Positions 1 through 38,964 of a stretch of DNA of 64,000 nucleotides are shown one piece after another; position 1 is the first letter of the stretch, and every line of letters starts with the position of its first letter. Source of the DNA: Arthrinium phaeospermum. Lineage: Eukaryota; Ascomycota; Sordariomycetes; Amphisphaeriales; Apiosporaceae. The stretch is from NCBI GenBank assembly GCA_006503535.1, contig QYRS01000011.1:2356001-2420000 (forward strand), read 5' to 3'. The notes under the pieces were generated by a model. It was not told where the DNA came from and did no database searches. It was given only the letters and a program-made list of their open reading frames with translations. A program made the position numbers and the translations under genes.

Positions 1-2406
1 TCTGCGCTACCATCTCCATGATCCTACACCGGATGTGCATGGGCAGGCCTCCCCAAGGACTGTGGCTTGCTGCCATTCTGGAAGAAGCTGGATTGCGTAG
101 TATTATAGAAGCCGGTTACTCCGAAGAACAGTGAAGCGAGAACGGCCGGGAGTCTTTTGAGAACGAGACGAAGCAGGGCATCCAGATTGTAAGATTTATT
201 TGATGCAACGACTAAAGGGAATTCGAACACCAACCTTAAATGATGTGCCAATTTATTCGGCATGGTACTGAGCAAGTAACCATGACTTCCTTCTCTTGGT
301 CCGTTCTTGAAACAAGATTCACAGTTACCATGGAAGATATTAGTACGCACCACGTTAAAGATATCTATCAAATAAAAGCTCTGTAGACCCACGGGACCTG
401 GAAACATTTGGCTCATGAGGTCCTTTTGAATTTCGCAGACGCTGGGCCACATGACTTCTAGTTCAGATCATGTTTCTAGTCGAGTCGGTGAATGCGCCTC
501 CATCCTCACAGGCCCTTCATTCAAAGTCGACGCCTCGCCCTCCGAGTTGCGCGGACCCGCTTCGCCCGACTTGACAATGTGTTGCTGGCCGCCAGTGCTT
601 CTGCCAGTGAAGTCTGGTCCTGCTCCTTGTGACTGGCGATTCATGTTGGGGGGAATACGAACTCTAGGCGGCTCGATGGGGCTCCGTATCGACTCGGATT
701 GGGTTTCCTCCGTGTGTGGTACCGATTGTGATGAGACTGATTTCGGTTCGTCCTGCTCGGGCTGTGGGAAGACAATCAACTCCGGTTCTGGCTCGGATAC
801 AAAGGACGAACTGGACGTCGAAAGGGGTTTCTCTGGTTGGTCGACATCTTCCATTTTGAGGAAGACGATCTCATTCGGCCGCCAGTGGGTCAATGTGGAC
901 GTTCCGGTGAGCTGCGATTGTAATATCTGCCGGCCGACTCCAACTGCCGTTTGTGGACTTGATTCTTCTCCTCCAAGTGGCCCACATACAAATCAAACGG
1001 CATCAGCTCCGTCGGTTTCCTGGGTTGCATTCGAGCAAAAAATAAAAAGAAAAAAAAAGAAAAAGAAAAAAAAACCACCTGAAATAATAAGTTACATTGA
1101 TTGCAATTATGGTGACTACACATCTTTTCTTCGTAGGTCCCGCATCCTGACTCGTCGCCTCGCTCTACAAGTTACTCGACTAGACCACGAGCTACTCGTT
1201 GCCGCTGAGCGATTCCAGATCGACCACAACCCTGCGCCATAGACAGCGACCCTGCAACGGGAGTAGTGCCCCACGCTGCCCTCCGGGCGCTGTAGTTGGG
1301 TTTCGGCCCATACAGAGGATAGGTACTTAGCTTGCAGTGCTTTGGTCGGCTGGAGACCGTGGACATTTATAACTGGCGCGAGGGGCTCGCGTCCGCGTTT
1401 CATCATCTAGCAGGGAAGCTGGCCGCTCACGTTGCGTACGACCGGAACTCGGACGCCTAGCTGGTGGTGTACTGCGAATGCCACACCATCGGCTGGAAGG
1501 GTTCAATCAATTCAATCAATGGCTCCCATTTTCTGATGTGTTCGACTTATGCCAACGGACGCTCCGTAAACCTGATTAAGCCATAATACGAGAGCCATTA
1601 GCTGTTTATTACCAATGGCACAACGTTTATTCCACTGTCTTGTAGAATAAACTGGCCGGTAGGTTATGAATAGAAAAGATTAAACCAACCGACTATTCCA
1701 AACCAAACGTTCTCAATTTTAAGGGGTGGTAGTCTTACCTTTTATAACTCCGCGGTATTCAAATTACAACATGGGAAGGATGGGATTGTTTTGCAATGTG
1801 AAGGTAATGAATGGCTGGGTGCGAACCTGGAAAAGGGGCTTAAATTCGACTAGGTTCGGAGATACCAACCGCCCGGCTATCCTCCTGCAGAGAATTCCAG
1901 GATGAACCTTTTTGCGATGTACAGCAACAAGTACGTACTTGCAGCCTCGTGAGGTACCCCGGAAACTTAACCTTTTTTCGGCATTGTTCCATGCAATAAG
2001 ATTCCAACGTCTCTTTTTTGAGATGTATGCCGGTACAATGTAACGTCTTTGACTTTCGCCCGATTCCTGTTAGCAGCCCCCAGTGCGTACGCAGCTGGGA
2101 GGGGTTGGTGACATGCATGGTGTCCGTTACGGAAGACGATTGGGCAGATTGTGGAAAGCCAGTGGGCCATGTCGCATTACACATTGACCGCACATCATTA
2201 ATAAATCGACTGCATCTGATTGGCTATCGAAGTTGCTCACCGGATAGTTGCGCAGCCTGCTTCATGCTCCGCTTGGCAATGAAGGACCTTGTCGCTATAA
2301 GTCCGTCATCCGCCCCTTACTTACGAGCATCGCTTCCTTCTGTTGTCTCAAGCACTACTTAGTCCACCTATCCACACTCAAGAACCTGCTAGGCTTTGCT
2401 ATCGCG
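1..2406. other. Gene-poor leading region, no gene supported
   Basis: Several reading frames of 60-260 codons exist on both strands, but none shows a recognisable domain, a consistent intron chain or fungal codon use. The minus strand at 468-893 and 890-1123 encodes a Ser/Glu/Pro-rich stretch that could be an exon of an unknown or decayed gene, but phases do not join convincingly. An A-rich tract lies at 1037-1074. The region probably serves as upstream sequence of the Clr5 gene that starts at 2407. Confidence 0.4.
1037..1074. repeat. A-rich low-complexity tract
   Basis: The plus strand is almost pure adenine with scattered guanines and one thymine over about 38 nt. It is simple-sequence DNA and creates meaningless poly-Lys or poly-Phe frames on the two strands. 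Confidence 0.8.
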
Positions 2407-5400
2407 ATGGAAAAGCCTACCCGATGTGGGCCAGAGCTACAAGACCTCGAAATCTGGCATCGCTACAAGCCACATCTCTATGAGCTTTATATAGTCCAGA
2501 ACAAGACTTTGAAGAAAGTCAAGGAGTCGATGGAAACACAGCATGGTTGGCCGGTGTTCAAGTAAGCTCGGGAGTACTCCTCTTCCAAGGCTCGCACTGA
2601 AGACAACAAAGGCTCGCTACATACGAGGTGGTGCTGCGCGACGAGCTTCGGCTTGTCAAGAACCTAACGAAGGATGACTGGCATGCAATCCAGCACCACA
2701 TTGAGAAGCGAAAGCGGGGTTCGAAGCGTAGTGAAGTTGTCATACACGGTCAAGTCGTTGACCAAAAAGGTATCACCAAAGCTATGAGCAGATATCGTCG
2801 CTCTGTTGAGATCGGCAGAGGTGAGATAAGTGATCCCCATAATCCCGGAGCAAGTTGACACTAAACAGCCAAAACAGCGAGAACCCCAGTCTTGCGCGAT
2901 GGTGTTCGCATTCATACTCCGCCTTTACTCTCGCCACGTACACTTGTCCCAGGTGGCATGGCTTATGCCCAGACGGTAACAATGGCGGAACCGCCGAACA
3001 GCATCACAAATGAGGCATCACCAATACTACCGGGAAGCAGGAACGCTATACTACCGGTGTCCAGCGGTGGACCCTTGAGCATACAGGCGATACTTGATAT
3101 ACGGTCCAACGCACCTTTCAACCAGTTCGCGAAGAAGTTACAGGAGTTAGGCAAGTCAATACCTGAACACATGTTGAGACTTATTATTAACGCTTATGAA
3201 TATCAGGACAATCACTCATTAGGCCTACGCAAAGGAGGGCCTCTTCCATGGTACATTCAGAACAGCTCGTGATGGACTCTGTTTCAAACCGCCGACTGCA
3301 ACAACCGGATCCGACCACCACGAGCCACCAATTGATCAATATCCCGGAGAGATCATCCCAGAGTAACATGGGGCAGCTAACCGGTTTCCCCGACACGGAT
3401 GAGTACCTTGGTGTTCTACCAAAAGCATGCTATGTGTTTTCCAACAATTTGAACGATTTTGAAGTCCAACGACGTTTCCTGGAGTGGGTTGGACTAGTTG
3501 CAGAAATGAAATTGCTGAGGGCGTTCTTTTCTCTGAAGCTACCAACCGTGATCGCCGTATGGGAGAATTCCCTTGATGCGTCATACCGCTTCCAGGATGG
3601 CAAAGCCTTCGCTATCTTGATCGAGATTGGCCTTGCCGTCGATAACGGCCGCTTGATCCGGTCCCGCCACGCCACGTACTTTGCATTGGCCATTGACTTG
3701 GGATCCGGCGACGCCATGGGCACCGTGTCGCGCTTGGTGAAGGCTGGAGTGTCACCAAACTCCCGATTTGACCGGTCCTGCTTGTCTCTGATCCCCGAGA
3801 AAAGAAATCATGGCGATTGGATTGACCACTACTGGCGTTGTTGTGCCCTCAAACAAGCCGCAAAGAATCGCGATTCCGAAATGCTAGAACTTTTGATCAC
3901 TGCTGGCAATTGCCGGTGTGGCAAGTTTGACGCCATGTACGGGAACATTTTGCTGTGTATGGTGGCCACGAGGGACCCAACTACCGGGCGTCCTCCATCC
4001 CTCCAATGTGTGAATGCGATCATCAACGCAGGAATGAGGGTTGACTTTCTGCCTGAAACATCGGAAACTATGAAATTCACGACAAAGTCTCTGGGTTGGA
4101 GCCACTGCGGCAAGCCCGAACTTTTGGTTGATCGCGTCCTTTTCTCGGCTAGCGGAGCCGATCGAGATATCTACGAAGCTATTGCAAGCAAGAGTCAATG
4201 GGCTCAGAAGTCTGTTACGGTCTCGGGAATCTTCCTGGCTGCCGAAGTAGGAACCGCACAGATCAAAAGATATCTGGAATCTGCCGCAATACCACAGTCC
4301 ACCGCGAAGGACGCACTCCTCCAGATTGCTCTATCGGAAGCTGCGGACCGAGAGGATCTCCCCGTGCTAGTATGTTTGCTTCAGTATGGCGTCGATCCAA
4401 ACGTGAATACACTTGTGGCCGGGCTCCCCGAAGAGGAGCGTCCTCTATGGAGCCCAATCGTCCGGGCATCCACGCGATGGAATATAGGAGCTTTACGCCT
4501 ACTATTGACCCACGGAGCCGATGTTGGAAGATACCCATTGTTTCGACGTGCTATGCAAAAAACGGTCAAACCGGGATCCGATTATTCTCACCTTGAAAAG
4601 AGACGCAGTCTCACAATCCAATCGCTCCTTGATGCCGAGGCGCATATTGACATACCGGCGGCTTCTCTTACTTTGGCTGCGCTGGTACCTCTTAGACCCT
4701 ACTACCCAGATGGTGTAAATGTGTTCATGAATGCTCACATTCGCCAGTGGCTTGACCACATCAAAGGCTTTGCGCCTGACTACGCACTTTGCGACAAACT
4801 CCAACAACACGGCATCTGTTTTGATCGTGGAGTAGATGGTTGCAACACATTACAAATTGTGCTACGGGAGGGTTGCAACTGTTCCACGGTGTCTTACCTG
4901 ATCAAGAGTGGAGTGCAAGTTCATTCATTCCTTTCAGAGAGATTTGACATACATTTCGGTGACACCACTATGCTCCACGACGCTTTACTGATGGCACATG
5001 TCGACCGTGTGGAAATTGTCGATCTCCTTCTTGAGAATGGCGCTGACATACACGCAACCACCTCGAGAGGGGTGTCTGTTCTTGAAGCCTCGCTCAGGAT
5101 GCCGAACTTGAATATCCCTTATCACATGCAGAGGTCCAAGGACAATCAACAAGGGTCCATGGAAATCTTCTGGAAGCTAATTCAACGTATGGGACCCCTC
5201 CAGGCCTCCTTGGTGGAGTTCAAGCGACAATCGCTCTTGTCATACTTGATTGAGTTGGGGGAATCCGATGATAGTATCTGCGCAGGATTAGATACTGTTA
5301 GCGACATCAACAACTACGGAGTCCTTGAAGGCTTATCACTATTGATGCAAGCTATTTTGTATCACCGCACTACACTGGTAATAGAACTCGTGGAAAGGGG

Positions 5401-6590
5401 CTGTGATGTCAATTTGAGAATTGACTCCTTTCTGCCCCAACAACAAGCTGAACGACCCCGGTTCAATACTGCCTTGGAGGTCGCTTGTTGCCACGAACGA
5501 GGAGATGCTGAAGGCTTTTCTTATGTTCAACATCTTCTGGGACAAGGCGCGAAAGCGAACGACCCACCGGCAAGGTATGGTAGGACAGCCCTGCAGTCCG
5601 CCGCTTCTTTGGGAAACTTGGGAGCTGTGACAGTGCTTCTGGAGCATGGCGCAGATGTCAACGCAAAGACAGGAGCACAGTTCTGTTTCATTTTACGCAG
5701 TTCCGAAAAGCTAACACACAAACATCAAGCTGTCGACATGGCTGCATCTTTGGGACATTTAGACATGGTAGACTTGCTGGTCGGAGCAGGAGGCCTTAGT
5801 GGCAATCCGGGCGTAACAGGCCTGGACGGAGCCATAATCGCAGCGAATAAAAACGGCCATAACAGCATTGTGGAATACCTTGAGCGGCGCACTGGACATC
5901 AGCTTTCGGATATTATGTGTCAGGCGAAGAGAGTCCCAGCATCCCGGACCAGGTTAGAGGGAACAATGCCCACACTACTGATGTGTATGCTAACTTTTGA
6001 GCAGCAGTAGTGAAACGAGTACGTCGAGTGCGGGCAGTGAGCGCACAGATGGAGAGACATCTTGCCATTGCCAACCAGCGGCCATGGACCGGGAAACAGA
6101 CAGCACGGGAGAGGAGAGTTATAGTCCAGTGGAAGACATCCCTGATGTACACGGAGCCGCTACGACATCACGAAACCTGAGTATGCCATTGCGCTTTCCT
6201 GTATACACCTGCACATTTACTTCGCCAGGCTCGTCGCGACCGGGAACGCTTCAAAAGCACATCGCTGCTCCGGGCGCAGCGACCATAGCAGCGCCCGATG
6301 CGGAATCTCCGAGTCAAGCCGGTAGTGGTGAAGTTACTGACACCGATTTCCCGACGGAAAGGGCGTCGGGTGATCCTCGCCCCCAAGACTCGATGAGCCG
6401 AGTTGCAGCGAGAGACGTTAATACACACGAGTTGAGACAGTTTCAGGGGAGTTTTGACCAAATAAAAGCTAACGATATAGAATGGGGAAGTCGAGGAAAG
6501 GAAGATAGCGTTGGTGGAGGGTGCATGTCTCCAATGACTCGGGGTATTCTGGAATGGATTGAAGAGACTGACTTTGGGCTGCACTACTGA
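2407..6590 (+). CDS. Clr5-domain and ankyrin-repeat protein
   Basis: I read five exons: 2407-2561, 2612-2820, 2869-3154, 3223-5952 and 6005-6590, giving 1321 residues with all phases consistent. The N-terminus is a Clr5 domain (WHRYKPHLYELYIVQNKTL, then a GWP and a YEVVLRDELRLVKNL stretch completed across intron 1), a short fungal domain found at the start of many ankyrin proteins. The exon-3 product has the usual TP-rich linker after Clr5. The long fourth exon carries degenerate and then clear ankyrin repeats, for example LLLENGADIHATT and VTVLLEHGADVNAKTG. The C-terminal exon is Ser/Thr/Glu-rich and looks disordered. Introns 1, 2 and 4 have good donor, branch and acceptor sites. The intron at 3155-3222 (GTCAAT...TTAG) is weak, so the Clr5 part and the ankyrin part (which has its own ATG at 3248) might be two genes. 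The molecular role of Clr5-ankyrin proteins is unknown to me; a scaffold or chromatin role is only a guess. Confidence 0.75.
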
Positions 6591-7208: not shown

Positions 7209-9039
7209 ATGGCGCTTGCAGAACCAGCGCCTGGTGATATCCTCGAGCTGTGTGACTCGTGCGACGACCTGAGACGTGGTGAGCGCGGTGCTTTCTACGA
7301 TTACGATGAACCAGCCGCATCCGGCGACGAAGGAACAACCTGTGAGGGATGCAAGCTTTTGCATACAGTGATAGAACCACTACCGCGACCCATAGATGGC
7401 TTAACCCTCATCCGGCATGAAAATATGGGGTCCGAATGCCTGCTCGCGGTTCTCGGCTATCAAAAGTTTCTACTGCTACATACAATCGAAGGTCTGCAAC
7501 GCTACCACTTCGCATAGGACTGCTCTGATAATCAGGATTGGTATAGGTATCCCTAACCCATGGAACCTGGACCTCTTCAAAGACACCTCCCAGTCGTCAG
7601 TCGCTTCTCTTGGTGACTTGGGTCACGTTCGTCATTGGCTACGCCGATGTACCGAGTCACACCCAGAATGCGGATACCCCGCTGACACAGTCCTACCAAC
7701 AAGGATACTGGACCTTGGTACTGATACTGCTAGTCTCATCCGTCTACGCGAATCAAGCGGCCTGTGCGGTCGCTACATATGCCTATCTTACTGCTGGGGA
7801 GGTTCCAGCTTCACCAAGACAACCCCGGACAACCTAGAATCTCACCGGCGGGGAATTAGACTGGAAGATCTACCCCAAACCTTCCAAGACACGATTCAGG
7901 TTGCTCGCGCACTCAACGTGCAATATGTGTGGATCGACGCCCTCTGCATCATTCAGCAGGACGACAACAACGAGGACTGGAAGCGTGAATGCGGCAATAT
8001 GGCGAATATTTACCGGAATGCGTACCTGACCGTTTCCGCCACCTGGGCAAACTCGCCGACGCTCGGCCTGTTCCCCAAACACAGAGAGGATTGTCGCAGC
8101 GGGCCCATCGTGGCGCGCATCATACATCATTTCTCAGAGGATGCAACCCTCGAGAGATCTATCCACTTCCCCGTGCTGGGTCGAGCGTGGACTTTCCAGG
8201 AGCGTATGCTGTCAACACGGGTACTTCACTTTGGTTCCGACGAGATTTACTGGGAATGCATGTCATTACATACATGTAAATGCGGAAAGGCAGAAATTGT
8301 ACATTTTGATGCATCGAAGACCGCATTTTCTGATGCTATATCCAATTTCAGATCCAACTCGACAGCTTCTCCAGACACAATATGGCGTTTTATGGTCGAG
8401 CAGTACACAGCCTTGCAACTATCATGTGCCACAGACAAACTACCTGCCTTCTCTGGAATAGCGAATGAAATGCAACAAGACAGGGGTCTGGAGTACCTGG
8501 CAGGGCTGTGGAGAGATACACTTGTGCAAGATCTGTGCTGGCGCGTGGCGTTGCCGGAGGATGAGAAGCCGTCCGTTCGAACCCCGCGGCGGCGACCGAC
8601 TTGGTCGTGGGCATCCGTCGACGTGCCGGTCCGATATAGCAACTACGTAAAACTTCATTCGCGGGAGTTGGAACTGCTAGTCGAGGTCCTTGATGCGCGG
8701 TGCTCGCTGGAGGGTCCCTCAGCCACCGGCCCAGTGAAGGGGGGATTCATCGAATTGGAGTGCGCCTTGATCCCTGTCTACTTTGAGAATGACGAGTTTC
8801 GCACTTCCTCGAGAATCTTGTATTCGTTCGACTTCCACGCGAAATGCGAGGATCAAGAAAACGTGGAGTACTACCGTATCCCGTTGTGGTGGGGTCAGAT
8901 ATTTCACATGTGCGGTTCTGGTGGGATTATTGTTACGCCCAAGAATCCACAAGAACTTACTCGTGTTGGAATGTACGAACATACTTGCTACAAGCAGGAG
9001 CTCACCAGCCTCGAGAGACAAAAAGTTAGAATCGTTTAG
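7209..9039 (+). CDS. HET-domain (heterokaryon incompatibility) protein
   Basis: Two exons, 7209-7491 and 7547-9039, give 591 residues. The 55-nt intron starts GTCTGC and ends GGTATAG; it is needed to pass an in-frame stop and restores the frame exactly. The N-terminal part has the usual Cys pairs of HET proteins (LCDSCDDL, CEGCKLL). The HET domain starts near residue 171 with YICLSYCWGG, continues through LPQTFQDTIQVARALNVQYV and WIDALCIIQQDD, then MANIYRNAYLTVSAT, and closes with GRAWTFQERMLSTRVLHF. HET domains are cytosolic and, in characterised genes such as het-6 or tol, trigger programmed death or growth arrest after fusion of unlike strains. The C-terminal half (about 250 residues, with PTWSWASVD) is typical of the large HET family and has no further named domain. 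Whether this copy acts in incompatibility cannot be told from sequence. Confidence 0.92.
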
Positions 9040-17421: not shown

Positions 17422-20400
17422 TTACCGCACAGTTTGTGCTGACCTTGTTATCCCATGGCTTGAGTCCGACAGGCTCAAAAGCATGGTAGCTGCCATCTGT
17501 GCGTCAGACATCTCGCTGTTACCTCCCCCCATATCCCCTTGACTGAGCTGGTCACCCGAGGTTTCATCCAGAATTCTGATTCTCTCGGAGTCTCTAGATA
17601 TTCCCTCCATTGTTCTTTTCTTGTATTGGTTACCATCGTAACCTGCGGATGGGTTTGGAACATTGGGGCTGTTCCTCTCGGTCTCGATGATCTCTGGCTC
17701 GTGTTCCTCCCTTGGTCTCTTCTTAGACCATCGAACAATGCGTCGTTCGACTAGATTTAGAAGAGCGCTCCACTGGCCACGATTCGTATTATCTGAACGA
17801 CGTAACCAGTCTTTTACGACCCCCGTCACATTGTGCCGTCGTACATATTCCCCGTGACTGGTTTTAATCTGAGTCGTTGTCAGTATTTAGAACATGGACC
17901 TCGAATTCGTCAAGACTCAGGACCCTTACCGGCACGTGTTCGTGGAATAGCTTCATATCATATGAACGTTCGGCGGACGCTGTCCTTGTTGGGCCGGTAA
18001 CTTGTTCACACCGTATACAACAAGCATTAGGATCCGCCCCATGTTCAAGCATAAGCGTGAATGTTTTGGTGAAGTCTTCGGTGCAGCCTTCTTCTGAAAT
18101 AATATGCCCTGATTTGATGTGGACCCAACTTATTGTGTATTCCCATAGCGTGTGACCCCTGAAATAGCCGTTAGGATCCCCACCATGACGCAATATTGTT
18201 TCGAGAATATTATTATTCACACTCCAACTTACGTAGGATGGATTGGTGTGATCAAGGCGCATCGCAAAGAGCAACAGCGGGGGTCTTTCTCCACTAGCTT
18301 GAGAGGTCTTGCGCGCTGAAAACCCTATACCCGGCTGTGGCATATCGATGCCGTGACGTTCTGCATCCATCTTAGCAGATGCATACCAGGTGATACCACA
18401 CCAAAGTGATACCTCACACAGATTTTGGGGCTTGTGGCCTAGTGTTCTGGATTTCCCTGGCGCTTGACCTTTCCAGTAGTAACTAACTCCAAAGCGTCGT
18501 GAGAATGAGCGCAACAATAGTAGTCGTTCAATTTCTTCAAGAAGTAGGACTCCCTCATTGGGAACTGGAGCAGAGATGTTGGAAATGTGCCTGAGAATGT
18601 CGATTCCTAATAAACTCATGCGGGAATGCGAAGTGGCTTTGAGAAAGCTTATTGCTCCTTGAAGATGGGCTCTCATTGGATTGAACTGATTCTGCTTGGT
18701 CTGGGTCACGATTGTATCCCAAATATCTGGCCGCTCCAGGTAGTCTCTTGCTGTCCGGTGTATGTACTGAATATTTGGCATCTCCCTAGATGGATATGTA
18801 TGTGCTGTAAAGAGGGCTGTAGATACTTCGTGGACCTCGAGTAAGCCAAATGTCCTGCTGCTGACTCTAAGCTTCATCTGGTGGATGATTTGATTGTAGC
18901 CAGATTCGAATATTACTCGGTCGGTCTCAATGGGCATCTTCATTGTTGATTCTGCATCATCATGAAGAAGTGCCCAGTAAAGTGTGAGTACATCAAGGCG
19001 ATAACCCCCGGCACGGAACAGTTGAAATATCCGGGCCCCATCCTCACGGTACTGGGATTCAACTTTGGCAAGCATATGCTCGAATAGCATCTCCATATCT
19101 TTTGGGAGACTGAAGAGGTATGCCTTCAACTGCGCGACGCTGTCCCCGTTCAGAGCACCTTTGAGCAATGCCTTTACCACGAGAACAACCCAAAGGAAGA
19201 CACCCGAAGCTGTTAGGACGATATATTCTGAGATCTCAATGGCGTCCGGGCTTCCATGGGTAAGAGTTTGGCGTAAGGACCTATCATTGTTGAGTTTGTC
19301 GCTTACGTACGTCCGAATATCGTCTTCTGTCAAGTCTTGCAGTCTGAGGCTGGAGTATGGACTGAAAATTGACTGAAGTTCAGCCAGTGGCCGACTGCTC
19401 ACACATACTTTGACATTTGGTGAAATATCCGCGAGTTCGTTGATGATCTCGGCAGCGTCCGACGGTTCACCTCCGTACTCATCAATTCCATCGATGAAAA
19501 GACAAAAGCTGTGCTTTTGACAAGCAATGCTTAGCGATTTCTTGAATCCCCGCACTAAACGCTCCAAGGACCACGTCACCGAGGCCGGAGCAATATCGTG
19601 CGCTATAAGTTCACTCTGACGCTCCCAATCAGTTGGGAACGCCTGTGGGATCAGATCTCGGCGTTTGTCGAGTATCTCAAACGCCAGGGCCCTGAACAGG
19701 CCAAGCTGTGATCTCTGTTCTTCTGTGCCACTGTTCCAGAAGAAGAACTTGGGGATCTCTAGCTTGGTTCCCTTTGACCACTTTTCCAAAAGGGTAGAGG
19801 TCGTTTGTTCTTGAACCAGAAATCTCATTAAGGATGACTTGCCACTGGCCGCTTTGCCGCAAATCCAGTACACTCCGCGTCCGTTACTGAGCCAATCAGC
19901 AAAGTCGTCCCAAACTTGCCCGTGAGAACTGGGGTCGCGGAATATCCATTTGAACGTGTTGCGGTGAGCTTCAGGCACGGTTTCGAAACGAAGTCCCATT
20001 TCCGGGAAACGGAGACTTTCCAGGATAGCCACCTCCACTCTCTGCTTGGTTTTGACCAAGTCGTCCGTAACGAGGGTCTCTCTTTGCGTCTGAAACTGCA
20101 CTCTCTGATCTTTTCTCTCTGCCTCCGGCATCCTTCTCCTGTCGCCCCAAACGGCGTTGAACTCCTTGATGCTGGAGACCAGTCTCCTGTAAGCCTCGGC
20201 ATGGATATCATTCTGGGCATTGCCTTGGTCAATTACCACCCGTGTTAGATTCTCTAGGAGATCTCTGCTCCGGTTATCCATGGTGTTTATGTGTTGCACA
20301 ATCTCATCCTGTGTGGATTGAAGGGCCTGTACCAGCTGGTCAACCGCCATATCAGCCTTGTTGCTTATTGAAGTTGCGTTTGCCTTGCTATGAAGTGACA

Positions 20401-20908
20401 GGTTTTCGACACCGTTGCTAGTGAACCACACAACTGTCAGTTTAATCCATATGAATAAAAAGATATTGAAGACATACCTGAGAAGGACCAAGGTCTGTGT
20501 GTCCAGCTCCATGCGAAGGGATGCTAGTCTCTGCGCCATCGAGTCCAAATCGGACTTATTCCAGACACATTTCAAAGCTTGTCGGAAGCTCTTCCATCTG
20601 CGACTCGAATGACCGGAACTGATGCGAATGCTAGTGATGCGTTCACAAAGGGTGCGTGAGACGTGTTCACAATCGTTGCATATGAGGAGCAACCGCTCGT
20701 GTCCCTCGTTCCTTGCCAGAGGAATCCTGTCCCGGAGATCCTTTGTCAAATCTCGAAGCCGTGTTGTTACAGTCTCGGTGTCTTTAATTTCATACGTCAC
20801 GCCGTTCATAGAGTTAGAAAGCTCCTTCGTCTTGCAAACGATCTTGCAAGCGAAATCGATGAATTGCACTGCGGCTGTACTGATAGATAAGGCTGAAAAA
20901 GGATCCAT
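17422..20908 (-). CDS. NLR-like STAND protein with HeLo-like N-terminus
   Basis: Three exons on the minus strand (20908-20478, 20417-17930, 17868-17422) give 1121 residues. Residues 1 to about 140 (MDPFSALSISTAAVQFIDFA, then helices) form a HeLo-like/fungal N-terminal domain, the region that in related proteins executes cell death. A helical linker follows, then a nucleotide-binding domain with the P-loop GKAASGKSSLMRF (about residues 331-343), Walker B in SFCLFIDGIDEYGG, and a sensor-like VKVCVSSRPLAE. The C-terminal half is helical, with weak ankyrin-like units (ILETILRHGGDPN, LMLEHGADPNA), and fits the NACHT-type DUF7791 group. The intron 20418-20477 is 60 nt and in frame, so it is invisible to frame inspection but has perfect GTATGT, CTGAC and CACTAG signals. 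The last intron 17869-17929 joins a Lys/Arg-rich tail (KKRPREEHEPE). Such receptors act in non-self recognition in fungi; the ligand is unknown. Confidence 0.85.
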
Positions 20909-26949: not shown

Positions 26950-29900
26950 TTAATAAAAGACGTAACCCAGTTTAGGCCCCATATAACACTTATACATGTT
27001 AGAGCTCCCAGGGCTCTTGAAGCTCAGGCGTAGCCGACTTGTTCTCAGCAGCTGTAGTCGACCGGCCAAAATCTGGCTACAGCGGCGACTTGACAGTTTC
27101 CCACGCATTCTTAGTAATTTGAAGACAATGAACCATCGCCATAATCCACGGTCTGGTATTTGGTCTTCGATCATAATCCGGGCTCCATATTCAACCAGTA
27201 TGTTGATAATACCGGCGTCGGCAAGGTTAGCCGCCAAGGATAAGGCGGTTTCTCCAGCTAATGTTCTCCAATGTGTAGAAGCGCCTGATCTAAGAAGTTT
27301 CGAAACAGCTTTGAGTTTCCTTTCGATAACGAATGGGAGGAATTGGCGAATACTCCCTCCATGGGGCCAGAACATGCCGCGTGGTACCGCCTCCTTCTCC
27401 CTGATAGCTTCCATCAATGGCGTTGTTCCCGTACGGCCCACGAAATTGACTTCGGCGCCGTGGCTAAGCAAAACCTCGGCCACATCCGAAATTACACATC
27501 GTATCGCCAGAGTCAGGATAGAATTCCCGCGCTTGTCGATAGTATTGACGTTGGCTCCATGTTGAAGCAACATTAGGACCTGCTCAACGTGACCCAACAG
27601 GACTGCCCCTATCAGCTCGAAGCGTCCTGAATAACCAGAGTCGGAGAACCTGCCAAAGTTGCCGAGCTTGAGACAGAGGTCGAGCTCTCGATTGTGACTG
27701 ACAGCTATCACCAAGGTATTCACTTGTCCCTCCTCTATATTCCACCAGTGTTCTTTTACGAGTGTAGACCTGTCCGTACAGAAGGAGGCATTAGGTCGAG
27801 GCATATTTATTATAGGTTGCAATAAGAGATCTCGTCGATTTCCCACACCTGAAGTCAACATTCTCTTATCGTACTCGTCGAACAGCAGGATTAGCATTCT
27901 CTCGCGCTTGTCGGCCGGGGATGTGAATTGTATCGTGTCGGCTAATGCGGTGCGGCCGGGCTCCCAGCTGGAATAGATGTCGGCTCCAGATTCCAACAGC
28001 TGCTTACAGATTTCGACATGACCCATGCGTACCGCCATCACCAGTGCTTGGCATTTGAAATACGGTCTGCTGATTTCGGGAGGGGGCGGGAACAAATCGA
28101 GCAACCATTGCGCCGGCACTTGACTTGGTATGTGGAGAATTTGAACCATGGCCCTTGATTGTCGTATAGAACGCCACGTTGGCTTGTTTAGGTGGGATAG
28201 AAGAAGTGATTTGATCTCCATCGACTCCTGTTTAAACCAGTGCTTCAAATACCCCACTCTGCCGTACATCTCGTTTACCTCGAAAGCTAAGACAAGAGGT
28301 GATTTACCCCTGGTTCTACCAATCTCATGTTCAGCGTCTTCCGGAGTGGCGATCTCCAAGTCTACAGCTGCGCCTTGTTGTAGAAGCCACTCGACCATGG
28401 GCAAATCCCGCCTCCGAACTGCAATTGCAAGTGGCGTCAATCCGAGGGCATCCGTAGAGTCCAAATGGTTTCGCCGAAGGAGAATTTCCCAAATGGATCG
28501 TGCCTGTAGCTGATGCTGAGCCCATGGTATTACCCCCCAATAGGTGGCGATGTGCAATGGACTTGGCGTAGATTCTGGATAGATTTCTGGAACAAGGCTC
28601 TGATATATCCACTCTTCCCAATGGCTCTGCAGAATGCTGTTCGCTGTGAAGTACGGTCGGGACAATTCGCGACAGATGTTTGGGGCTGTACAAGCTTTCA
28701 TATGTTGGGGCAAAAAGTTGATAGAGTATGGTTTCAAAACGTCGCTTTGTTCTGTTCGTTCGAGGATTTTTAGGCACGTCCTCATAATGATCCGATGTCC
28801 ATTATCGATATGCGTTCGGTCGGTGACAGAGCTTGTTGGAATTATAAGATGTGGTTGGGCCAGGAATTCCTTTACTGAAGTGTGAACAAATCGGATAATT
28901 CCGGTTTCCTCGTTTACCACTAGGAGATGTTCGCAATAAATAGACAGGTCTTTGATGCGTTTCCGATGTTCGCGAGTAACGGAGCCTAAAACCGCGCGGG
29001 CCAACTGTGACACAGTTAAGGGCACAAATGCCAATGCGACCCAGGTAAGAAGAGCTTGGATTTCCCGCCAATCTTCGTCATAGTCCTCGAAGATAAGGCG
29101 CAATATTCGGTGGTATTGCTCCTCGAGTCCTTTAGGGGTGCGTTTCAATGCCCTAATGACCTCCCCGGAGGTGCGATACCTCGACAAATCCCTGACAACA
29201 AAGCTTATCCAGAGAAACGAGCCTTCTGATCGATCCCGGAGTTCATCAGATATCGGCTGGATCCAATCTTCGAAGCCAGCCTTGTGGGATAAAGAGTCCC
29301 GGATGTTGCTGGCAATAAAAAGCTCAATGTCATGCCGTATATGTACGTCACACTCCCGAAGTCGGAGGTTGGAGAAACCACGGAGGCCGCTTTGGTTTCT
29401 ACTCACGACTGCCAACTTGAAAGTGCTTTTAGAACGCGCTGCTTTGTCCATTGCGAAGAGATCATGAAACCTTTGGGTGAGTTTGAGTGACGATTCCTTA
29501 TCGCACTCGTCCAATCCGTCAAGGATACAGAAAGTCTGCGCTGAGCCTGGTGACGTGACCAAGGCTTCAAATACATTCCAAATAGCCTGTGGCTTTGAAA
29601 TTGTGTAGCTAGCGGCTTTATCGGAGTGAAAGCTCGGCCACACATGCTGGTCGAATGATTCGTCTGAGACCACCCGGAGTAGTTGGATGAGTAGACCCCG
29701 AAGAACCGCGGTCTCTGTGTTTCGCTTCTCGTCATCGTGACGACAGAAGAAGCAGGTCACACGCTCCCCGCTCTCTTCTAGGCTTTCGGTGATGAAGATG
29801 GATAGCATCGTCTTGCCCATGCCAGGTCCACCGGATATCCAAAGTCGTGCGCAGTCACCTTGGAGCCAGTTTCGATAGTCAGGGTGAGTCTGGATCCATT

Positions 29901-30173
29901 GGCATGTTCCTGGGAGACGCCGGCCCTTTTCGCTTTGGAGCTCGGCTCTATCATCGGATGGGTATGTTAGACGTAGGTCATCGAGGACCTTCGCCCGCCG
30001 TGTGGCAATATCGCCATGGTCTGGATTATGTCAGCAACTTTGGGCACCTCTTGGCCAGTAAAGCATTGTCCTGTACCAAATGAACAGCTGTGGAACGTCC
30101 CTGCGAGTACCACGGCATTGGGACCTGCAGTGATACCCTGGATATGTTGGTGCTGGGGTGAGGCTGAAGCCAT
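26950..30173 (-). CDS. NACHT-ankyrin NLR with N-terminal amyloid-like motif
   Basis: Two exons on the minus strand, 30173-30077 and 30020-26950, give 1055 residues. Exon 1 encodes 32 residues and holds the motif IQGITAGPNAVVLAGTF (residues 11-27). The 56-nt intron (GTACAG, branch GCTGAC, acceptor CCAG) joins in phase to VLDDLRLTYPSDDR and WIQTHPDYRNWLQGD, the lead-in of fungal NACHT receptors. Walker A is GGPGMGKTM (Lys102), Walker B is TFCILDGLDECD, and a KLAVVSRNQ sensor strand follows. After a winged-helix-like part (FVHTSVKEFLAQP) come ankyrin repeats: LTPLAIAVRRRDLPMVEWLL, GHVEICKQLLESGADIY, GHVEQVLMLLQHGANVN and ILTLAIRCVISDVAEVLLSH. The protein lacks its own death domain. The adjacent divergent gene encodes a HeLo-like protein with matching motifs, so I infer a receptor that seeds assembly of that effector. 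An extension of the frame upstream of 30173 is possible but has no good ATG. Confidence 0.88.
30093..30143 (-). other. Candidate amyloid signalling motif (R0) in NLR
   Basis: The 17 codons for IQGITAGPNAVVLAGTF lie just after the start of the NLR. They align without gaps to two repeats of the neighbouring effector: Ile1, Ile/Val4, Ala/Thr6, Ala/Ser10, Val/Phe11, Val/Ala12, Ala/Val14, Gly15 and Thr/Ser16 agree. Alternating hydrophobic residues and the conserved Gly are features of the HET-s-type (HRAM) motif. Confidence 0.7.
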
Positions 30174-30810
30174 TTGTTGTACGGCGTGTCGCGAGACGAA
30201 AACTATGAATGGGACACCAAGCGAACTTTTCAGGGGGCAAAATGGGCAATTGGATCCCTGTTATGTGTGGTAGGAGTGCTTGACGCCCTCACATCATTGC
30301 TCCCTTCTAAGAATATCTGCCCGCAGTTTCATGCAGCACAGCCCCAAGCTGCAAGTCGCGGAACGTTCTCAGTGGTGACGTAACAGGGTGCCGATAGCTG
30401 TAACCAATGGAAGCTGCTCTTAAGACGGCACGTTTCGGGAGCAGATTTACCGGGCGGCCCAATTTAAGCCAGAAGGAGGGGTTCTGCCCAATAAGGTGTT
30501 CTTCAACGTGTTGCCGAGGCACAAAAGCAATACTTTTCAACGTAGGCTGCTTTCTCTGTCAGCACTAGGCACACCATTCGGTCGCGCTGAGCTCGATTGC
30601 TGTCCCCTAGCGCTGGTGTGTGTCGTAATATTGCAGGACACTGTGCCCCTTCTTACCGCCTCTTGGTGCCCATCCTAATGGGGTAAGACAATCAGAAGAA
30701 TAGGTTTAGGTACGCTCCCACCTATCCAGTGTAGTTGCAGTAATATATTAAATCACTTATCTCCATGAAAAGTGACATGGTCAAGTAATTCACAAGTGTG
30801 CCGCGCTCCC
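30174..30810. promoter_or_regulatory. Shared divergent promoter of NLR/effector pair
   Basis: These 637 bp lie between the start codons of the NACHT-ankyrin gene (minus) and the HeLo-like effector gene (plus). No coding signal is visible. The sequence must contain both promoters, and a common control region would keep receptor and effector co-expressed; that last point is inference. Confidence 0.6.
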
Positions 30811-31751
30811 ATGGCGGACCCAATATCGATCGGCGGCCTTATTTTGGCTGTTTTACATTCCGTTGGAACAGTCTCGTCACTCATCGGGGATATCAGGAAC
30901 GTTCCATACCAGGTTAGGTTCCTCCGCTCCGACCTCGAAGCACTCAAGCCTGCCCTGGACCAACTCAGCGAAATCATTGGCCGGCCGGGGCAGAATGAGA
31001 TTCCCCTCGTATACAACCTTTCACCTGCCCTTCAACAATGCCAAGAAGCATCACAGGTCTTCGAGGAATCTCTCAGGCGCTGGGCCAAACGCCAAGTGGA
31101 TGGAAAGTTGGCCTGGATAGCTAGATTCAGCATCGCGACCCGACATCAAGGCCAAATCGACGCTTTCCAGAAACAACTCGCCGCCTGTAAGCAGAGTCTC
31201 ATACTCAGCATCACGACCACACACCTGTAAGTTGATCCTCAGCCAAATATTCGAATAAGCTGACAGGGACTAGATCCCAGTCTCAATTGACACCGATCCC
31301 TCGTGATGACTACATCTGGGACCAGGTGGAAGTGCTCGAAAGAAATGCAGCTGAAACCGGAAACTACTTCAGCACCGACCTGACGCGTATAGACGACCAA
31401 ATCAGAGATCTTACGTCATCCCGGCCAGCAGGCAATGGCAGCACGTCCCAGGACCTGCCTGACAACGCCATCCGGCAGCTGCAGCTTTACAGAGCGGCGG
31501 CCGAGCACTTCTACAGGCTCTGTTCCGAGTCCATCCCCAAGACCGTGACAGAGGTCAAGCAGCAGCGGATCCGCAACGTCAAGACGAGCGCGGATAGTGT
31601 CGCTCACGTGGGAAGCTTCAACGAGCGGGAAGGGGCAGAGAAGATCAACCAGGACATCTCTGACGTGATGACGGACGACAAGAGCTTTGCTGTTGTAGGA
31701 ACAGCTAACGGGATTGATTTTAACCAGATGTTTGCGAATATGCGTAGGTAG
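30811..31751 (+). CDS. HeLo-like effector with two C-terminal amyloid-like repeats
   Basis: Two exons, 30811-31226 and 31274-31751, give 297 residues; the 47-nt intron has GTAAGT, GCTGAC and GACTAG. Residues 1 to about 220 form a helical fungal N-terminal/HeLo-like domain, starting MADPISIGGLILAVLHSVGT, with a hydrophobic first helix as in membrane-targeting HeLo and HELL proteins. The C-terminus has two repeats 29 residues apart: IRNVKTSADSVAHVGSF (238-254) and ISDVMTDDKSFAVVGTA (267-283), separated by a Glu-rich linker. Size and layout are those of HET-S (about 290 residues, helical domain, then two repeats). The divergent neighbour is an NLR whose N-terminus carries the same motif. In characterised systems, the receptor motif templates amyloid folding of the repeats and the helical domain then damages membranes. 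Here that role is inferred from architecture. Confidence 0.82.
31569..31619 (+). other. Candidate amyloid repeat R1 of effector
   Basis: Codons for IRNVKTSADSVAHVGSF, residues 238-254 of the HeLo-like effector. It matches the second repeat and the NLR motif in the I-x-x-[IV]-x-[AT]-x(3)-[AS]-[VF]-[AV]-x-[AV]-G-[ST] pattern. Confidence 0.7.
31656..31706 (+). other. Candidate amyloid repeat R2 of effector
   Basis: Codons for ISDVMTDDKSFAVVGTA, residues 267-283 of the HeLo-like effector, followed by NGIDFNQMFANM to the C-terminus. The aromatic residues after the repeat recall the hydrophobic loop that follows the HET-s core, which is a loose comparison. Confidence 0.7.
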
Positions 31752-36633: not shown

Positions 36634-38214
36634 ATGCACCTCTTCGACCTTCCTCCTGAGCTCGCTGGGCCAGTGTTTGAACTCGTTGCCGGTTCTCGTG
36701 AACTCAAGCGATTCATGAGATTGCGCATTGTCAGTCGTACGTTACCAGTTTCATCATGATGTAACACCGAAGCACAGTAGCTTCTTCTCTTCTCACACCG
36801 TTGCGTCCATACAGGCATGTTCAAGCACTACATTGACGACGTCATCTTCCGTCTCCAACTTCTGCACAGAATCCCCAAGTCGCCTTCGAAGGAATGGATC
36901 CTCGCCCCGCGACGCGAACCAATCCATACGGAAGCGTGCTCTCTGGTCTTCCGGTATCTGGCTTACCAGGCATGGATCGAGACGGAGCCCAACTCGCTTC
37001 TGGGGCGCGTTTGTCGGGCTGCCGTGTCCATCTCCGAGCAGTTGGACGACGCCGGATTGCCCGCCGTCATGTCTCGTCTGGGATCCCTGTGCCGCCTTGC
37101 AGCAAGCAACGAGAACGGCCCAGGCATTCCCTGGATGTTGTTCTGGTCCGAGGATCCAGATGAGGTCCGGTTCCATGATGGGCGGTGGTCTACCACCTGT
37201 AGTGCTCAAGACCTCGAGGACGACCTCTGCGTCGCGGCTGCATATCTCGGCTTTCGGTCGCACATCCAGAAGGTCGTAGCGCAGCGCCGTCTGTTGTGCC
37301 CCTGGGGACCTACATCGCAGGTCACCAGTAGAGTCTTCGGTCGCACCTATGACGCCGCCGTCATGAGCGGGGACATGTCCATGCTGCGGCTCCTCCTGTC
37401 GTCCAGCCCGAGCTACGTACCGGACAAGCCTCTGCACAGAAACGTGCGCCGCACCACCCTCGAGCTTGCCGCTGTCTTTGGCCACCGGGAGGCCTACGAA
37501 TTCGCGCTTGGTAGCAAGCCAGACTCGATGCGAACGTCCATCGAAGACGTTTTGCAAGAGCTGCAGTACCCGGACCAGTACGACCGAGCTTTGTCCATCC
37601 TGCACGCTAACCCATTCAGTCGGGGAGTCGAGCTGCTTTCCCGCAAGGCGAGACACGGCCACGGGGAGATGGTCAAGTACCTGCTCGATCAAGGCATATC
37701 GCCCAACCACGAGCACGGAAAGGAGGAAGGCCCCTTCTGCCGGCCCTACAAGCCGCTGATCCAAGCCGTCGAGAAGGGCAACCCCGACATCGTCGACCTC
37801 CTCCTCGAGCGCGGCGCCGACCCGAACTGGTTCCACCCCACCAACACCCCGCTCATGACAGCCGCGCGGCTGAGCCGCCACGCCATCGCCGAAGCCCTCC
37901 TGGGGGCCGGGGCCGACGTCGACGCGGGCTGTCCGCCACCGATCGTGCTGGCCGTGCTCAAGGAGGACATGGACATGTTCCGCCTGCTGCGCGGACGCTT
38001 CGGCGCCCGGCTGGACACGCCGGAGACGGGGGCTGGGCGATGGCGCTGGCCCGGCTGCACGGGCTGGACTCCATGGTGGGGGTCCTCGAGGGGGAGGGGG
38101 TGGGGAGGGATGTGGTGCTGCAGCGCTGCGGGCGGTTTGAGGAGCTGTATCCGGATTTGTATCTTTATGCGTGGCCGCCTGTGGAGTTTATCCCCATTTT
38201 CTCGACTGATTGAG
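36634..38214 (+). CDS. F-box/ankyrin protein with apparent frameshift
   Basis: Exon 1 is 36634-36736 and exon 2 begins at 36815. The N-terminus is F-box-like (FDLPPELAGPVFELVAGSRE), suggesting recruitment to an SCF ubiquitin ligase through Skp1. Ankyrin repeats follow: AAVMSGDMSMLRLLLSSSP, ARHGHGEMVKYLLDQGISPN, AVEKGNPDIVDLLLERGADP, and ARLSRHAIAEALLGAGADV. At a run of five G (38028-38032) the protein-like frame changes. As written, the frame goes on to 38445 through a Trp/Arg/Gly-rich, non-natural stretch. With one more G the protein would continue GWAMALARLHGLDSMVGVLE and end at 38214 with FSTD. I give the end of that likelier frame. Either a true mutation or a base-calling error explains it. 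Confidence 0.72.
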
Positions 38215-38964
38215 ATGCTGCAGGATGATGCAACCTCGCTACGGGAAGCTGTAGAGATACGGAAAAAAGAAAAGGTGAACAAAAAAACTGTTTGGCGATG
38301 TCCAATAGGGAGGAGTGAAGCTAGCAAGTTAGCAGGTGGTAGGTTCAAATGGGATCGCTCATTGCTACTTCGGTCCGTGACAGATTCTCAAGGTGGAGGG
38401 AGGAGATGGCAAAGCGCTCGAAAGCTATACCAGGGGCCTCAGTAAGCACAGTGTCAGACCTTGCGCAATCAAGGCCAATTGATTGCTTTTCCTTTAGCAA
38501 TTGCCACTAGACGATGTTCCTGTCAATGCGGAGCGGTGTTGGCTCTTGGTCAGTAGAAACGAGTTCATTAACGGGATTTCTAACTGCGAAATTGTCCCCA
38601 ATTGCGCTGTCCCAGATAAGAACGCTGCAGAATGGAGGGCCGACCGGTCAGACGCCCTGGCTGATGGATCTTGGCGCAGGGATCGAGGTCCGTGATGTAG
38701 TTGGGGTAGTCCGGCGAATGGGGCCAGATTGTCTTGGGCCGGCCGATCGTGCGCGCCTGGGCCAGTGGGGCGCCTGTCCGGACCACCACCATGCTCGGGG
38801 TTCCGACGAAACAGATGTCTTGTCATCAAACCTTTCTGGCCGCATATATAGGCGGCAGTCCCGCCATCCTGGTCTCCTGGGTGGCCATTCTTGCTACTTA
38901 CTCTAGATCATCATCACGAAATTCGATTACTACCACATACACATACATCCTCAATATCATTAAC
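38215..38964. other. Intergenic region and scytalone dehydratase promoter
   Basis: No gene is supported. A TATATA element lies at 38845-38850, about 115 bp upstream of the scytalone dehydratase ATG. Confidence 0.45.
38845..38850 (+). promoter_or_regulatory. TATA box of scytalone dehydratase gene
   Basis: TATATA in the context CGCATATATAGGCGG, 115 bp upstream of the start codon, is the best core promoter candidate for this gene. Confidence 0.5.

Follow-up and report, generated by a model that had tools for sequence, protein, structure and literature searches.

The 64,000-nucleotide stretch of Arthrinium phaeospermum DNA analysed here (the window; contig QYRS01000011.1, positions 2,356,001 to 2,420,000, called C11 below) carries two adjacent genes transcribed in opposite directions. 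One encodes a NOD-like receptor (NLR) with a NACHT-type domain and ankyrin repeats, and the other encodes a HeLo-like protein, referred to as the effector. A short amyloid-type motif is present once at the N-terminus of the NLR (r0) and twice at the C-terminus of the effector (r1 and r2). The features of the pair are as follows.

26950..30173, minus strand: NLR gene (NACHT, ankyrin repeats), 1055 aa, from the spliced open reading frame and Pfam
29398..29910, minus strand: NACHT-type nucleotide-binding domain (NPHP3_N), NLR residues 70-240, Pfam 124.9 bits
27394..28443, minus strand: ankyrin repeat region, approximately NLR residues 559-908, with limits taken from the best Ank matches, Ank_2 87.7 bits
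30093..30149, minus strand: r0 amyloid-type motif, NLR residues 9-27, a 19-mer whose Q is motif position 3
30174..30810: divergent intergenic region, 637 bp separating both start codons, from the gene models
30811..31751, plus strand: HeLo-like effector gene, 297 aa, from the spliced open reading frame and relatives P0001-P0005
30814..31427, plus strand: HeLo-like domain (PF17111), effector residues 2-190, spanning the intron, 47.6 bits against a cut-off of 27.2
31563..31619, plus strand: r1 amyloid-type repeat, effector residues 236-254
31650..31706, plus strand: r2 amyloid-type repeat, effector residues 265-283, separated from r1 by an 8-residue loop in 21-residue numbering

The NLR is encoded by exons 30173-30077 and 30020-26950, with the ATG at 30173 and the stop codon at 26950; the intervening 56-nt GT-AG intron (30076-30021) connects the exon carrying the motif to the NACHT frame. 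An N-terminus of the r0 type is present in the NLR relatives P0007-P0010 and P0013. Four of the five named Apiospora relatives with an N-terminus (P0007, P0008, P0010 and P0013) are collinear with the window protein across the splice junction, and the fifth, P0009, has the same motif and a junction slightly shorter than that of the window NLR. The effector is encoded by exons 30811-31226 and 31274-31751, separated by an intron of 47 nt (31227-31273). These gene models and the Pfam matches bear out the original prediction of an adjacent and divergent pair formed by a NACHT-ankyrin NLR and a 297-residue HeLo-like protein, and the three 17-mers that it had aligned were recovered at NLR residues 11-27 and at effector residues 238-254 and 267-283.

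The motifs were compared with the HET-s-related amyloid motif (HRAM), which a 2015 survey describes as 21 residues long, hydrophobic at positions 5, 8, 10 (T allowed), 16 and 18 and with G at position 19 (PMC4518210). All three motifs fit this strict pattern, with a hydrophobic residue or T at positions 5, 8, 10, 16 and 18 and with G19. The survey further reports inter-repeat loops of 6-18 residues, opposite charges of r1 and r2 at several outward positions and a less charged r0 (PMC4518210). The loop between the window repeats lies inside the published range, r1 and r2 carry opposite charges at position 4 (R/D) and at position 13 (D/K), and the r0 19-mer is devoid of D, E, K and R. Class marks in the same survey are Q at position 3 for HRAM2, Q at 18 for HRAM4 and Q at 16 for HRAM5 (PMC4518210). 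Q is present at position 3 in r0, r1 and r2 and absent at 16 and 18; by this published rule, and not by clustering with published motifs, the window motifs would belong to HRAM2.

When r0 was slid over the whole effector, the top sites were r1 (score 27) and r2 (17), the third site scoring 5. Reciprocally, r1 slid over the NLR placed r0 first (27, with a runner-up at 14), and r2 gave a tie at 17 between r0 and an unrelated NLR stretch. With the addition of two upstream residues to the 17-mers (Q-x, the Q being common to r0, r1 and r2), the score between r0 and the effector tail was reached by 58 of 5000 shuffles, and the score of r1 against r2 was reached by 13 of 5000. To assess the layout of the repeats, open frames of 60 residues or more from the window and loci L030-L047 were scanned for a second pattern match at 23-45 residues from the first, both lying near the frame end. 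This layout was present in 3 of 1794 frames, namely the window effector, its paralogue on contig C8 (L030) and a canonical HET-s-type protein on contig C1 (L037), and the same scan detected no paired repeats in the remaining 16 loci (L031-L036, L038-L047). A narrower first scan, restricted to the HeLo-like and HeLo loci of the same genome, had yielded scattered single matches and had missed the C1 repeats, which have A at position 5; the pattern was widened to admit C1, which is thus no independent control.

Both the gene pair and the motif were found to recur in other Apiospora, which was one of the checks attached to the original prediction. Effector relatives were retrieved by a first protein search (six) and by a profile search (nine further), all named ones being Apiospora proteins, and the best 120 of 387 NLR relatives were considered; two types are distinguished, type 1 including the window pair and type 2 the C8 pair. 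The strict pattern is present in all six type-1 NLRs having an N-terminus (window included) and in none of the 111 other NLR relatives that make up the rest of the best 120. It is also absent from P0015, the one complete type-2 NLR, in which the motif is one residue shorter. Both repeats match in 8 of 13 effector C-termini (window included), and one repeat matches in the other 5. Consecutive locus tags place an NLR (PG984_013051) next to an effector (PG984_013052) in Apiospora sp. TS-2023a, and the same holds for a pair of the second type in A. marii (PG991_003497/003498). Three more pairs, P0001/P0010 (247314), P0011/P0128/P0129 (15554) and P0014/P0134, may be proposed from equal-sized contigs only.

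Some relatives deviate from this picture or extend it. The C-terminus of P0004 (A. marii PG985_001579) diverges from all relatives close to the end of r2, as a result of either an annotation error or a genuine change. A loose version of the pattern matches 6 of the 111 other NLR relatives within their first 60 residues; among these, the Fusarium NACHT-ankyrin NLRs P0072 and P0078 have, on visual inspection, r0-like stretches and may be members of additional pairs.

A number of results weigh against an amyloid signalling pair. Some of them (the few identities, the 17-mer shuffles, the two higher-scoring 19-mers and the lack of a structural model) would suit another reading, according to which the shared motif is a product of chance or an ordinary likeness between strands or linkers, the two neighbours signalling otherwise or being functionally unrelated. 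The 17-mer comparison by itself is weak, as the score between r0 and the effector tail is matched by 319 of 5000 shuffles, and r0 is identical to r1 and r2 at just 5/19 and 4/19 positions. Four of the 172,238 19-mers from open frames of the window and 17 loci score at least 27 against r0; apart from r0 itself and r1, they comprise two unrelated 19-mers that outscore r1 (31 and 30), so that the pairwise score by itself is no proof. Positions described in the survey as preferences are not all followed: R or K, favoured at position 15 as a preference and no requirement (PMC4518210), is replaced by V in r0, F in r1 and V in r2, and the tendency of positions 17 and 21 to share a polar or a hydrophobic character (PMC4518210) is seen in r0 (L/F) and r2 (V/A) and departed from in r1 (H17/F21). 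The effector has no PF11558 match at E <= 1, and the HeLo protein encoded on C1 in the same genome, used as a control, does match this family with 64.4 bits. At the structural level, AlphaFold gave no confident fold, with a mean predicted local distance difference test score of 62.4 for the effector and 53.5 for its motif region. A profile of the effector C-terminus had no PDB sequence match.

Other searches bear on these points. Seven effector C-termini were also without a PF11558 match at E <= 10, a threshold at which search filters remove most matches above 0.1, and PF11558 is matched by just 38 of the 155 published HRAM proteins (PMC4518210). The canonical HET-s prion-forming domain (PF11558, HRAM1) was rejected for the effector because of the missing PF11558 match. 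As to known motif profiles, this one failed to recognise the effector, and it is the published HRAM pattern that r0, r1 and r2 fit. The PDB sequence search with the effector returned three matches, all at E >= 1.3. Foldseek of the low-confidence helical effector model found no PDB match at E <= 0.001, and no chain named HeLo, HET-s or MLKL was among the 50 matches listed by each of two PDB fold searches, which are uninformative for a low-confidence helical model.

Chance likeness nevertheless has to account for the fact that, in the entire effector, the two best sites for r0 are precisely r1 and r2, that the pattern is seen again across relatives, that the C8 paralogue has an identical layout with motifs altered on both proteins, and that paired repeats are very rare among open frames. 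We consider it very unlikely. The pairwise score alone is insufficient as proof; the position and the doubling of the motif carry the case.

Combined, these results make it highly probable that the two genes of the pair form an amyloid signalosome of HRAM type, of class HRAM2 under the rule given above. The sequences show which domains the pair has, that its genes are adjacent and divergent, that one motif copy on the NLR is matched by two on the effector, that most HRAM rules are followed and that pair and motif recur in Apiospora, and to this extent the HET-S/NWD2-like death switch originally proposed stands; its amyloid folding, templating and cell death, together with ligand sensing, are carried over from HET-S/NWD2 and HELLF/FNT1. 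By analogy with these systems (PMC7885112, PMC9815663), the ankyrin repeats of the NLR would act as the ligand sensor, oligomerisation would take place through the NACHT domain, and the r0 motifs clustered at the N-termini would nucleate a beta-solenoid. The r0 fold would then template the r1-r2 C-terminus of the effector as two rungs, and the HeLo-like helical domain, once set free, would attack the plasma membrane and cause cell death.

The original prediction had also suggested that the combination of a HeLo-like domain with a motif of this kind might be undescribed. This suggestion has to be abandoned, as HELLF/FNT1 of Podospora, a HeLo-like protein with a HRAM adjoining an NLR (PMC7885112), and the 2015 survey precede it. 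The survey included HeLo-like proteins and lists, for Apiospora montagnei, HRAM1 (1), HRAM2 (1) and HRAM4 (2) (PMC4518210, Table 1). Beyond it, nothing on amyloid signalling appeared, by title and abstract start, among the matches listed in a literature search on Apiospora and amyloids. The A. montagnei HRAM2 protein comes from the same genus as the best matches of the window proteins and shares with the window motifs the class mark, Q at position 3; it possibly represents the same locus as the window effector.

The window pair resembles HELLF/FNT1 of Podospora anserina by its N-terminal HeLo-like domain, its two C-terminal HRAM repeats and the single r0 on the adjacent NLR. In contrast, FNT1 is of the NB-ARC/TPR type whereas the window NLR is of the NACHT-type/ankyrin kind, and HELLF is classed as HRAM5 whereas the window motifs have Q at 3 and none at 16 or 18. 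Class names differ between sources and call for caution, the Podospora HeLo-like protein being HRAM4 in 2015 (PMC4518210) and HELLF being HRAM5 in 2021 (PMC7885112, PMC7889193). With HET-S/NWD2 (Podospora anserina, HRAM1), the pair shares adjacent genes, the 1+2 layout and a helical death domain on the effector. However, HET-S combines a HeLo domain (PF14479) with PF11558, whereas the window effector has PF17111 and no PF11558 match; NWD2 carries WD repeats instead of ankyrin repeats, and a canonical HET-S relative exists elsewhere in the same genome (C1, L037). HELLP/PNT1 likewise consists of a HeLo-like effector and an adjacent NLR, but its PP motif is single-copy and RHIM-like whereas the window motif follows the HRAM pattern. 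In Sordariales, ankyrin or WD40 repeats are the commonest partners of T-NACHT NLRs, and amyloid N-termini are present on some NLRs of this type (PMC12258605).

With its amyloid mechanism unchanged, the pair could be a vegetative-incompatibility locus instead of an immune switch. HET-S-type systems are capable of allorecognition, and the window also contains another NLR-like gene as well as one encoding a HET domain; a review states however that none of these components except [Het-s] and sigma exists as a natural prion (PMC7889193). We regard this assignment as unlikely.

Besides the pair, the domain scan of the window covered 10 of 27 open reading frames of at least 260 aa. The second NLR-like gene (NPHP3_N + DUF7791; 17867-20908, minus strand) lies about 6 kb past the 3' end of the NLR gene, and the HET-domain (PF06985) gene is at 7417-9036 on the plus strand. 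Ankyrin proteins are encoded at 3248-6007 and 36817-38442. Given this HET-domain gene, the two NLR-like genes and the pair of ankyrin proteins, recognition genes appear to be abundant in the window.

The genome (48.4 Mb) was searched with the 66-residue C-terminus of the effector, which matches two places only, the window (C11) and contig C8. The C8 locus and the HET-s-type locus on C1 are as follows.

G000:C8:2598305-2603045 (L030): paralogous divergent NLR/effector pair
C1, L037 ~2346-4360: canonical HET-S-type HeLo protein (PF11558), adjoining an NLR frame

On C8, r0 is one residue shorter than in the window, and the residues S-H are common to C8 r0 and C8 r1. Upstream of the intron, matches of the C8 HeLo-like exon to an intact relative are spread over three frames, one stop codon lies in frame and an ATG is missing where the start would be expected; exon 2, which encodes the linker and r1-r2, remains open. 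The C8 sister copy seems to have lost the HeLo-like killing part and to have kept the prion part. The type-2 relatives P0133, P0134 and P0135 (157-162 aa) are likewise annotated without a HeLo-like part, which gives weak support to the truncation because type-1 P0127 (123 aa) is annotated short too and annotation artefacts are possible.

The variability of the two types was compared between the amyloid region and the linker. Variable columns number 11/55 in the amyloid region versus 37/79 in the linker for the type-2 rows (n=4, from four genomes: C8, P0133, P0134, P0135; Fisher p 0.0018), and 23/55 versus 35/75 for the type-1 rows (n=6: window, P0001, P0002, P0003, P0006, P0131; p 0.60), p-values which are a guide only, given that the rows are few, related and compared as protein sequences and that columns were taken as independent. 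P0005 (a poor fit to either type), P0127 (short) and P0129 (a one-residue gap in r1) were aligned and left uncounted, and P0004 was excluded from the alignment of the linker and prion-forming domain. The type-2 variability hints at selection on the amyloid region of what would be an amyloid-only protein.

The specificity of the motifs was estimated by scoring each r0 against r1 and r2 of each locus. The C1 NLR frame contains a stretch resembling an HRAM1 r0 by eye, and this r0 fits C1 alone (26, 26), scoring at most 8 on C8 and C11. Window r0 scores 27, 17 on the window versus 18, 16 on C8, the gap lying in r1 only. Two further type-1 r0s both reach 25, 20 on the window, whereas on C8 one gives 12, 21 and the other 15, 21. 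C8 r0 scores 26, 32 on its own partner and almost as high, 26, 28, on the window effector, where it does no worse than window r0.

The window effector might therefore be the executioner for further NLRs besides its neighbour, among them the C8 one, whose own partner seems to have lost its HeLo-like domain; such branched wiring would supplement the two-gene signalosome, and we hold it to be a rather doubtful addition. It agrees with the broken HeLo-like exon of C8 and with the fact that r1 and r2 of the window are the top two effector sites of C8 r0. On the other hand, C8 r0 has high scores on its own partner and window r0 fits C8 r1 less well; similarity, moreover, is no predictor of cross-seeding, HET-S, HELLF and HELLP being described as devoid of cross-reaction in Podospora (PMC7885112, PMC7889193). 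In a more elaborate version, C8 would consist of an NLR and an amyloid-only protein, with its killing domain broken and r1-r2 constrained, either relaying the signal to the window executioner or absorbing it as a decoy. This circuit is improbable; if true, it would be an adaptor or buffer of prion-type death signalling that arose by natural evolution. Literature searches on HeLo pseudogenes with a prion-forming domain and on branched amyloid signalling gave no title on an amyloid-only partner among the matches listed, which is no proof of absence.

Two further HeLo proteins of this genome, at L039 ~4099-5034 and L043 ~3588-4733 (both minus strand), have C-termini that by eye resemble single sigma-type motifs.

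With the window pair, a known kind of signalling gains an example that combines a NACHT-ankyrin NLR with a HeLo-like effector. What makes it useful is the set to which it belongs: besides the intact HRAM2-like pair of the window (C11), the same genome has a sister pair in decay (C8) and a locus of the canonical HET-s type (C1). With these three loci, it becomes testable whether closely related amyloid motifs are insulated from one another or cross-signal, and whether selection keeps an amyloid-only remnant as an adaptor or a decoy.

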